Assembly: GCA_020072965.1 (NCBI GenBank)
Contig: JAIQFY010000029.1
Location: 1 to 59,923, forward strand
DNA from: Terriglobia bacterium
Lineage (GTDB): Bacteria; Acidobacteriota; Terriglobia; JAIQFV01
DNA length: 59,923 nt
Direction of reading: 5' to 3'
The notes below the pieces were generated by a model that searched no databases, was not told the origin of the DNA, and was given only the letters and a program-made list of their open reading frames with translations. Positions 16,253 to 19,045 of the stretch are shown here, one piece after another (the stretch's first letter is position 1; each line of letters begins with the position of its first letter). Position numbers and translations under genes: made by a program.

Positions 16253-16286
16253 TAAGGAAACATTGTAATCTGTTTGGGACGAAATC

Positions 16287-16336
16287 AGAAGTCGGAAGAG
16301 CAGGTGTTAGGTATGAGGTTTCAGGTGTCAGGTATG
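16287..16336. repeat. Seven-base tandem repeat, left part
   Basis: The stretch begins AGAAGTC, GGAAGAG. From 16302 to 16336 it contains five consecutive 7-mers AGGTGTT, AGGTATG, AGGTTTC, AGGTGTC, AGGTATG. It lies between the LipM-like gene and the palindrome at 16365. See the related array at 16390. Confidence 0.65.
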
Positions 16337-16364
16337 GAAAGCTAGAAGCCCGAGTCTCTTGTAG

Positions 16365-16384
16365 GGGCGCACAGATGTGCGCCC
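16365..16384. repeat. Palindrome GGGCGCAC-AGAT-GTGCGCCC
   Basis: A perfect 8-bp stem with an AGAT loop. The preceding 13 bases (16361-16373, GTAGGGGCGCACA) recur exactly at 52158-52170, so this is a dispersed repeat. Confidence 0.65.
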
Positions 16385-16389
16385 TCTTT

Positions 16390-16452
16390 CGAAGTCAGAA
16401 GTCCGAAGGCGGAAGCCAGAAGAAAGATGTCAGAAGTCGGAGGTCGGATGAC
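16390..16452. repeat. Nine in-register 7-mers (AGAAGTC family)
   Basis: Units in order are CGAAGTC, AGAAGTC, CGAAGGC, GGAAGCC, AGAAGAA, AGATGTC, AGAAGTC, GGAGGTC and GGATGAC. The 63-bp array ends 42 bp beyond the proposed TAA stop of the DedA-rhodanese gene. Confidence 0.7.
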
Positions 16453-16494
16453 AGGGACCGAAGAAGCGTCAGTAACCTTAACTTTGAACTCTTT

Positions 16495-17469
16495 TTACGA
16501 AAACTGGGGGAGCACGAGGATATCCTCGGCAGGGACTGTTTCGACGTCGCCTTCCATTTCTGTCCAAGCTTTAAAACCCCCGCGGATCACGAAGGCATTA
16601 AAACCCTTTTCCCGAAGGAGGTGCACCAGCCTGGTGCTTGTCGCTTCGTTCCTTCAGGTGCAATACAGATAAATCTCCTTGTCCCGGGGCAGTTTCTCAA
16701 ACTGCTCGCTGATGGATGCTGGTTCGATACGGATTGAGCCTTTGATGCGCTGGGACCCTTCCTCGTAATAACCGTGGCTGCGCGCGTCGGCAATCAGGAT
16801 CGTTGTTGACAGGTTCGGATCGGAGAGTTTTCCAGCCAATTCCTGAACGCTCACTCGGGGCACTTCCCGGTAGAGCCGGTTCTTGGAGTAGATCCGAAAA
16901 CGGCGAATGGCATACCCGAACAGGGCGAGAACAAAAAGCCAGAGAAAAATCTGGCCCAGGGAATGGATACTGTTCACAACGCTCTCAATGCCCCGGCTGA
17001 AGAAATACCCGACCCCAAGAAACGGGACGATGTAAAGCAGGCTTCCCAGCAGATCGAGGGCGAGGAACTGCCGGAGTTTCATCTTCAGACTTCCAGCCAG
17101 GGGAGGGGCCATGGTGTTGATGCCGGGGATGTACTTCGCGACCACCAGGGTGATCCGGCCCCGCTTATAAAACGACTCCGCAGACCGCAAGATGCAGGTC
17201 TCCGGACTGGCGGAAACCTTGCAGAGAAATCCGAGAATCCGCCAGCCTGACAGTCTTCCAAGAATATAGAGGATTGTATCCCCTATCAACATCCCGATGA
17301 CCGCCGTCAGCAGGACGATCGCGAGGTTCAGGGAACCGAGCATCGACGCAGCGCCCGCCGCAAGAAGAAACGGGAACGCCGGGATTGGTAATCCCAGAGA
17401 TTCGAAAAAAACACTGGCGAAAATGATCGCGTACCCGTAGCGGTCGAGAAGATGCAAGACGTGGTCCAT
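16495..17469 (-). CDS. DedA-family membrane protein fused to rhodanese; in-frame TGA, probable selenoprotein
   Basis: Residues 1-200 are a DedA/SNARE-associated membrane protein: SLGLPIPAFPFLLAAGA, IGMLIGDTILYILGRLSG and FYKRGRITLVVAKYIPG, with several membrane helices. Residues about 220-324 form a cytoplasmic rhodanese domain (TTILIADARSHGYYEEGSQRIKGSIRI). The frame meets TGA at 16654-16656, right after KEIYLYCT. It continues with RNEATSTRLVHLLREKGF, then VIRGGFKAW and VLPQFS to a TAA at 16495-16497. The downstream part is exactly what a rhodanese needs, and a hairpin of SECIS geometry follows the TGA. I read it as Sec272 in a Cys-Thr-Sec motif. A nonsense mutation is the alternative. Without readthrough the product would be 271 residues and lack half the rhodanese domain. 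Confidence 0.75.
16611..16658 (-). promoter_or_regulatory. Candidate bacterial SECIS element
   Basis: On the minus strand, GCACCA (16637-16632) pairs perfectly with TGGTGC (16628-16623) around a three-base loop GGC. The loop starts 22 nt after the TGA and its first two bases are G. A lower stem pairs CCTGAAGG (16658-16651, containing the TGA) with CCTTCGGG (16618-16611) with one U-G wobble. Known bacterial SECIS hairpins lie within about 16-37 nt of the UGA and need a G in the first loop positions. Confidence 0.65.
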
Positions 17470-17712: not shown

Positions 17713-17732
17713 CTCCTGAAGCTGTAATCGCG

Positions 17733-17857
17733 AGGGTCAGATCTCCGCATTCTTCAATTGCTGACGGGCGAGCCCCAGCGCGGTGGTTAGCTGAAGATCG
17801 CGAATGAAAAAAATGCGGAATTGCCTCTTCAAATGCAGATTGCAGAGATCTGACCCT
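17733..17857. mobile_element. 125-bp inverted-repeat element (MITE or transposon remnant)
   Basis: The ends AGGGTCAGATCT (17733-17744) and AGATCTGACCCT (17846-17857) are perfect 12-bp inverted repeats, with imperfect pairing continuing inward for about 9 more bases. The interior is too short for a transposase. On the minus strand it can encode a short tail LGLARQQLKNAEI ending in a TGA that lies inside the terminal repeat. I infer an internally deleted copy of an element with REP-like ends. Confidence 0.6.
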
Positions 17858-17987
17858 TGCCATTACCAACAGTAAGGGCCAGGAATATCGTGACGAAAAC
17901 GACGTAGAGTTTCCGCTTTTGCGCAAGCATGCTGTGATCCTTTCTGAAACTCACTACTGCTTTGCCGGTTCCTTTAAACTATATAAA

Positions 17988-18114: not shown

Positions 18115-18260
18115 GGGGTCGCATCTCCACTATCCACAATTCCCGCTCCTGTGGCCGGGCTGGCGCGGAATCAAAGGCGGGGTGACCCCAAGGGGCTTGT
18201 TGAAAATGCCGGACACTCTTAACAACAAATACCAAATGCGGATAGTGGAGATGCGACCCC
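18115..18260. mobile_element. 146-bp element with perfect 21-bp inverted ends
   Basis: The sequence at 18115-18135 (starting GGGGTCGCATCTCC) is the exact reverse complement of 18240-18260, with 104 bp between. No complete gene fits inside. The ends begin GGGGTC like the neighbouring remnants. I interpret this as a non-autonomous mobile element. Together with 17733-17857 it fills most of the gene-free interval from 17.5 to 18.4 kb. Confidence 0.65.
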
Positions 18261-18454: not shown

Positions 18455-19045
18455 TCACTTCGCCTTCACGGCCTCCGCGGCGATTTCGACCTTCACGTCG
18501 TTGCCCACTACGAGGCCACCCCCATCGAGGGTCTTCCCATAATTCATTCCGTATTCGCGCCGATCCAGCGTTATTCCAGCTTCGATTCCCATCCGGGTTC
18601 CACCCCAGGGATCCTTGATCTTGCCGGTGATGGAGAAGGGCAACGCGACTTCTTTCGATACTCCGTGCATCGTCAGCGTTCCGACGGCGACATAGCCGTC
18701 GCCCTTTTTCTCAATGCGCTGACTTTGGAAGGTAAGCTCGGGAAACTTCTCTGCATCCAGAAAGTTTGCACTGCGCAAATCCTTGTCCCGGTTGGGAGTA
18801 CCCGTATCGATGCTGGCCGCCTTGATGGTCACGCTGACCGACGATTTTGTGATATCCCCCTCGTCGTAGGCAAGGGTGCCCGTAAAATCAGTGAATTTCC
18901 CCTTCACGCTGTTGATGACCAGATGCCGGATCGAAAACCCAATCGAGCTGTGAACCGGATCCAGCGCGTATTTATCAGCACTGAAAACCGCATTGACCAG
19001 AAACATGCTAAGGAGCGACGCCCATACCATTTTCTTCAAACGCAT
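18455..19045 (-). CDS. YceI-family periplasmic protein
   Basis: This 196-residue protein has a signal peptide (MRLKKMVWASLLSMFLVNAVFSA) and the YceI lipocalin-like barrel. Typical phrases are YALDPVHSSIGFSIRHLVINSVKGKFTDFTGTL, SVTIKAASIDTGTPNRDKDLRSANFLDAEKFPELTF and GTLTMHGVSKEVALPF. The family binds isoprenoid-type lipids such as polyprenyl chains in the periplasm. The role here is unassigned. A link to the quinone genes elsewhere in the window would be speculation. It appears monocistronic. Confidence 0.9.
   Translation of the reverse strand: MRLKKMVWASLLSMFLVNAVFSADKYALDPVHSSIGFSIRHLVINSVKGKFTDFTGTLAYDEGDITKSSVSVTIKAASIDTGTPNRDKDLRSANFLDAEKFPELTFQSQRIEKKGDGYVAVGTLTMHGVSKEVALPFSITGKIKDPWGGTRMGIEAGITLDRREYGMNYGKTLDGGGLVVGNDVKVEIAAEAVKAK

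Follow-up and report, generated by a model that had tools for sequence, protein, structure and literature searches.

Does a TGA codon lying inside the rhodanese part of a predicted membrane protein end that protein, or is it read as selenocysteine (Sec)? The question is raised by a gene fusing a DedA domain to a rhodanese domain in the stretch of Terriglobia DNA analysed here (59,923 nucleotides, hereafter the window).

A DedA-rhodanese frame crossed by a TGA codon

The original prediction described a frame that ends at TGA right after YLYCT and then continues for 52 sense codons to a TAA, and translation of the minus strand, which the prediction had not named, gave exactly this. Read with U at the TGA, the frame yields 324 residues with a single TGA (codon 272) within YLYC-T-TGA-RNEATS (Table 1). 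The plus-strand reading of the same interval contains several stops and was set aside as non-coding. The protein matches PF09335 with 50.4 bits (gathering score 33.9) and PF00581 with 46.8 bits (gathering score 22.2). The latter match runs across the TGA, which agrees with the earlier view of the tail as a continuation of the rhodanese domain. The TGA also falls, as had been noticed, two residues beyond the likely catalytic Cys270, giving a C-T-U motif.

A 52-codon open stretch has a chance of roughly 8% in random sequence and, taken alone, is weak evidence for coding. The stretch observed here goes beyond chance because it completes the rhodanese domain, is kept in dozens of homologues and shows Ka/Ks of ∼0.08–0.18.

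Table 1. Features of the DedA-rhodanese gene in the window
Feature	Position	Strand	Remarks
DedA-rhodanese selenoprotein gene (very likely)	16495..17469	−	324 codons + TAA; ATG at 17469, TAA 16495–16497
VTT/DedA membrane domain, residues 29–155	17005..17385	−	Pfam PF09335
Cys83 codon	17221..17223	−	invariant in fusion family; absent from ordinary DedA
Cys92 codon	17194..17196	−	invariant in fusion family; absent from ordinary DedA
Rhodanese domain, residues 208–304, spanning the TGA	16558..16848	−	Pfam PF00581; fold match Z up to 15.8
Cys270 codon, partner of Sec272 (C-T-U motif)	16660..16662	−	invariant 32/32
In-frame TGA, predicted Sec272	16654..16656	−	Cys in 11 homologues
52 post-TGA codons completing the rhodanese domain	16498..16653	−	translation; purifying selection
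SECIS-like hairpin, nt 20–34 from U of UGA	16623..16637	−	GCACC-AGGCU-GGUGC; G at loop position 2

On its 3′ side the gene is followed by a lipoate/biotin ligase-like gene and then by hrcA, grpE and dnaK; degenerate short direct repeats of the GAAGTCAGAAGTCGGAAG type occupy positions 16280–16454, just 3′ of the gene. A gene of the YceI domain (polyprenoid-binding family) is located 985 bases upstream (18455–19045, minus strand); an upstream YceI gene is also present in three other loci (L098, L105 and L107). YceI proteins bind polyprenoids. This neighbour was not leaned on, since 4 of 21 neighbourhoods are too few; beyond dedA-rhodanese itself, no family was common to most of the 21 neighbourhoods compared, and no conserved operon pointed to a substrate. 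Two imperfect palindromes, at 17724–17866 (37-nt arms, 84%) and 18115–18260 (27-nt arms, 93%), have similar GGGTC-type ends and look like repeated intergenic elements.

Exchange of TGA and Cys codons among homologues

Homologues were taken from a sample of the class Terriglobia and from named genomes. The named relatives fall in Terriglobia/Acidobacteriales, which makes the host an acidobacterium. Whether close relatives carry Cys or Sec at the TGA position had been proposed as a check, and both were found: in the alignment of homologous loci the codon-272 column holds TGA in 24 and Cys in 11, and the surrounding residues invariably read C-[TS]-[UC]-x-[NSR]-E. A tree of 59 sequences (31 Sec, 28 Cys) requires a minimum of seven Cys/Sec changes, and its strongly supported branches force at least three.

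When the window gene is compared with its closest relatives, Ka/Ks after the TGA, where computable, is similar to or below that of the pre-TGA segments. By this measure the codons beyond the TGA evolve under purifying selection and are not decaying; the random frame decay that the original prediction named as refuting was not found. These data bear on the reading of the locus as a pseudogene with a nonsense mutation, or as an assembly error in which the TGA is not really present. Many of the sequences do come from metagenome assemblies, which would favour such a reading. However, the TGA is shared by independent assemblies over several families, the tail has the low Ka/Ks given above and the TGA genes carry a hairpin of their own (see below). 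A sequencing error in particular appears implausible because the identical TGA recurs in dozens of independent assemblies, and we regard the whole explanation as scarcely credible.

A SECIS-like hairpin 3′ of the TGA

The hairpin begins 16 nt after the UGA: nucleotides 20–24 pair with nucleotides 30–34 around a 5-nt loop whose second base is G. Full 5/5 pairing of this stem was observed in 23 of the 24 TGA genes, the exception (L036) making 4/5 pairs, versus 0/10 Cys genes (10 of the 11 Cys loci were scored in this first count). No other register in the TGA genes pairs comparably. An outside test on loci added later gave full pairing in 9/9 new TGA fusions versus 0/17 Cys fusions, some of the latter repeating genomes already in the first set. 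Among the TGA genes the third stem pair covaries (G-C in 21, A-U in 3), and one of the added TGA fusions, L091, displays a further compensatory change from C-G to U-A. At the hairpin site most Cys genes specify a comparable S-A-R/K-V/L-A peptide through different codons; the hairpin is nevertheless tied to the TGA, so synonymous codons are constrained in the TGA genes. One of five Burkholderiales Cys genes (L063) pairs 5/5, presumably by chance.

In the whole genome, the 34-nt TGA-plus-hairpin pattern of the family occurs once, at the dedA-rhodanese gene. The folding z-score of the window gene's own hairpin is modest, from −0.8 to −2.4 against shuffled sequences according to the stretch taken. 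Folding energy alone was rejected as a SECIS test: shuffle z-scores of single genes separate TGA from Cys genes poorly, and register-specific pairing was therefore used instead. A scan of the window with Rfam returned no RNA family match at Rfam thresholds, so that the hairpin is shown by comparison.

Selenocysteine machinery and its co-occurrence with the TGA

A search of the genome for selA, selB, selC and selD, suggested with the original prediction, recovered all four. The assembly containing the window (5.9 Mb, 108 contigs, 100% complete) carries selA (556 bits), selB (382 bits), selD (377 bits) and a tRNA-Sec gene (selC) with anticodon TCA (UCA in the tRNA). The remaining weak tRNA-Sec matches, where checked with ARAGORN, turned out to be tRNA-Ser. 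The selD of this genome (L018, 1450–2500) is itself a selenoprotein gene, with an in-frame TGA at the Cys/Sec position in a G-U-A-A-K-I motif.

The association extends over the phylum. In 297 genomes sampled across Acidobacteriota, selA was present in 28/28 genomes with a one-TGA fusion versus 2/26 with a stop-free fusion (Fisher 2.3e-13), a tally of stop counts per fusion; where the TGA lies, or whether Cys is present, was inspected in the fetched loci alone. The class sample gave 20/20 for TGA fusions versus 7/12 for stop-free ones (p 0.004; in genome G033 the selA match is partial and below cut-off). Both p values are inflated by shared descent, related genomes not being independent. In the class sample selB follows the fusion TGA as selA does.

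Cys thus stands in for the TGA mainly in genomes without selA, which weighs against a true stop. Under that explanation the product would be a 271-residue protein, its tail being made, if ever, through leaky readthrough without Sec. In favour of this, the DedA half would stay intact and UGA is the leakiest stop codon. Nevertheless, the tail is conserved, and truncation would delete the conserved GGFKAW segment together with the helix and strand that follow the active-site Cys in the predicted model. We consider a true stop very improbable.

The reading of the TGA as Sec in a Cys-Thr-Sec motif is supported by the Cys/TGA exchange, the TGA-linked hairpin and the complete set of sel genes. On this genomic evidence the DedA-rhodanese gene very likely encodes one selenoprotein of 324 residues with Sec at UGA-272. 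SelB and Sec-tRNA(UCA) would insert selenocysteine at this codon, guided by the short hairpin downstream.

Structural features of the rhodanese half

In the predicted model (pLDDT 83, pTM 0.68) a strand ends at residue 269 and a helix starts at 273, placing Sec272 immediately before the helix. In a fold search the rhodanese half matched rhodaneses, the best being 3gk5 (Z 15.8), and the matches include the rhodanese domains of CoA-disulfide and NADH-persulfide reductases. The As/Sb reductase 2j6p was also returned (Z 12.4), with ordinary rhodaneses scoring higher. These solved-structure and fold matches cover the rhodanese half only, the DedA half being hardly probed. The active-site loop is atypical, reading C-T-U and showing two extra residues in one of two alignments; sulfurtransferase activity should therefore not be assumed.

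Stand-alone rhodaneses with the same C-T-U were observed in six Acidobacteriota genomes (L130–L135), the hairpin pairing 5/5 in four and 4/5 in two. One of them, L131, starts with an apparent signal peptide, and an exported CxU rhodanese may thus exist too.

A Cys pair and missing flippase residues in the DedA half

Cys83, Cys92, Cys270 and the C/U at position 272 are invariant in all 32 aligned fusion proteins. Six ordinary DedA paralogues and Escherichia coli YghB have neither Cys83 nor Cys92. Both are present in 4/5 stand-alone DedA relatives of the fusion type (L123, L124, L128 and L129, all without a rhodanese domain), the fifth having neither. Genome G041 carries two of these (L128 and L129) alongside the stand-alone CTU rhodanese L135, and the two halves might therefore act in trans.

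Undecaprenyl-phosphate flipping requires Glu39, Asp51, Arg130 and Arg136 of YghB (PMC10127716). In the fusion family the Glu39 equivalent is retained (Glu23 in the window protein), that of Asp51 is non-acidic throughout, that of Arg136 is N/S/A/G and that of Arg130 is Lys in all 33 rows. The Cys83/Cys92 loop has positively charged segments on either side, and such segments also precede the rhodanese domain. From this charge pattern and the positive-inside rule we infer that the loop and the rhodanese domain are both cytosolic.

Proposed function

What might such a protein do? No biochemistry on any DedA-rhodanese fusion was found in the literature searched. We tentatively favour a persulfide/thiol redox module at the cytosolic face, coupled to DedA; the invariant Cys set, the lost flippase residues, the charge pattern, the model and the rhodanese fold matches are the observations behind this view. 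The rhodanese domain would lie at the cytosolic face of the membrane, where Cys270 and Sec272 could form a redox pair that accepts a persulfide or an oxidised thiol and resolves it via a Cys-Sec selenenylsulfide. This pair would exchange electrons or sulfane sulfur with Cys83/Cys92 on the cytosolic loop of DedA, and DedA transport or binding would thereby be coupled to the thiol/sulfane-sulfur state, Sec being a faster substitute for the Cys of relatives.

A more specific proposal is a selenium-dependent switch that controls the DedA transporter or is driven by it, so that the movement of a lipid or sulfur compound across the inner membrane would follow the sulfane-sulfur/thiol state. The invariant Cys83/Cys92 of the DedA half strengthen this idea of a membrane redox switch; it is possible but less likely than not.

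The protein could instead be a selenoprotein that flips undecaprenyl phosphate, the rhodanese acting as a sulfur-sensing regulator. DedA proteins of the COG0586 type are C55-P flippases and some have rhodanese fusions (PMC10127716); Glu23 is kept, and a YceI-domain gene is upstream in 4/21 neighbourhoods. However, the Asp51 and Arg136 equivalents are gone family-wide and Arg130 is always Lys. Moreover, the Pseudomonas aeruginosa PA1209 protein is a DedA-rhodanese fusion, and of the dedA deletions in this species only the loss of PA4029 altered fosmidomycin susceptibility, the others leaving it unchanged (PMC12893004). We find a flippase unlikely: judged by its residues, the DedA half probably moves or binds something other than undecaprenyl phosphate, unless it handles this lipid by a non-standard mechanism.

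Detoxification or export of metalloids or heavy metals, in which selenite, arsenate or a metal would be bound or reduced by the Cys-Sec pair of the selenoprotein and then exported by DedA, seems rather improbable. DedA proteins have been tied to selenite resistance (Ledgham 2005, as related in PMC10127716) and to indium resistance (PMC8679861), and 2j6p appears among the fold matches. Against this, ordinary rhodaneses outscore that reductase, and domain checks on near neighbours turned up no metal-resistance gene.

If correctly read, the gene brings a protein of membrane-transport type into the bacterial selenoproteome. The family is spread over the Acidobacteriota, abundant soil bacteria, and standard gene calling would truncate it. 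The link of the DedA-rhodanese fusion to UndP has been called 'unclear' (PMC10127716); the invariant DedA Cys pair suggests a possible purpose for this unexplained fusion. The frequent Cys/Sec exchange in related genomes also makes the family usable as a natural experiment on the retention and loss of Sec.

Relation to known systems

Neither the CxU rhodanese motif, described before in a stand-alone family, nor the joining of DedA to rhodanese is new in itself. What is new is that the fusion is, on the comparison of genomes, very probably a recurrent selenoprotein across Acidobacteriota. The invariant Cys pair in its DedA half and the lack of two of the four flippase residues are also new. Among open-licence papers none was found linking a selenoprotein with DedA plus rhodanese or with a VTT domain, which is weak as evidence of absence.

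The feature reported as common to bacterial SECIS elements is a guanosine in a small apical loop shortly 3′ of the UGA (PMC1088965), and the hairpin described here resembles them in its small loop AGGCU containing G and in its proximity to the UGA. The closest rhodanese family is NCBIfam NF041203 (rhodanese_LYCAU, 'rhodanese-related (seleno)protein'), listed as 'Rhodanese-like form 3, CxU' (PMC13188914), in which C-x-U occupies the equivalent site of the rhodanese domain and Cys and Sec exchange likewise. All 32 aligned fusion members match it at E ≤ 0.001; the window protein scores 80.3 bits, below the curated cut-off of 115, and the stand-alone L131 scores 125.2 bits, above it. This family differs in its length of ∼126 residues, whereas the window protein has a fused DedA domain with its own Cys pair. 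TsoB (NF045694, rhodanese/DsbD fusion-like, PMC13188914) is likewise a selenoprotein with a rhodanese joined to a membrane redox domain; it differs in its UxxxxU motif with two Sec and in its membrane partner, and matches only 5/32 fusion members, weakly.

The Cys DedA-rhodanese fusions, PA1209 and the Burkholderiales proteins annotated 'DedA family protein/thiosulfate sulfurtransferase GlpE', share the domain order. The Burkholderiales fusions read have C-x-C at the active site as well as both Cys of the DedA pair, PA1209 being compared by architecture alone. In contrast to the window gene, these fusions carry Cys for Sec, and no SECIS-like hairpin is conserved in the Cys genes. Finally, the COG0586 DedA flippases (UptA, YghB and PA4029) have in common with the fusion the DedA/VTT domain and the Glu39 equivalent, whereas the fusion is without equivalents of Asp51 and Arg136, has Lys for Arg130 and has gained Cys83 and Cys92.
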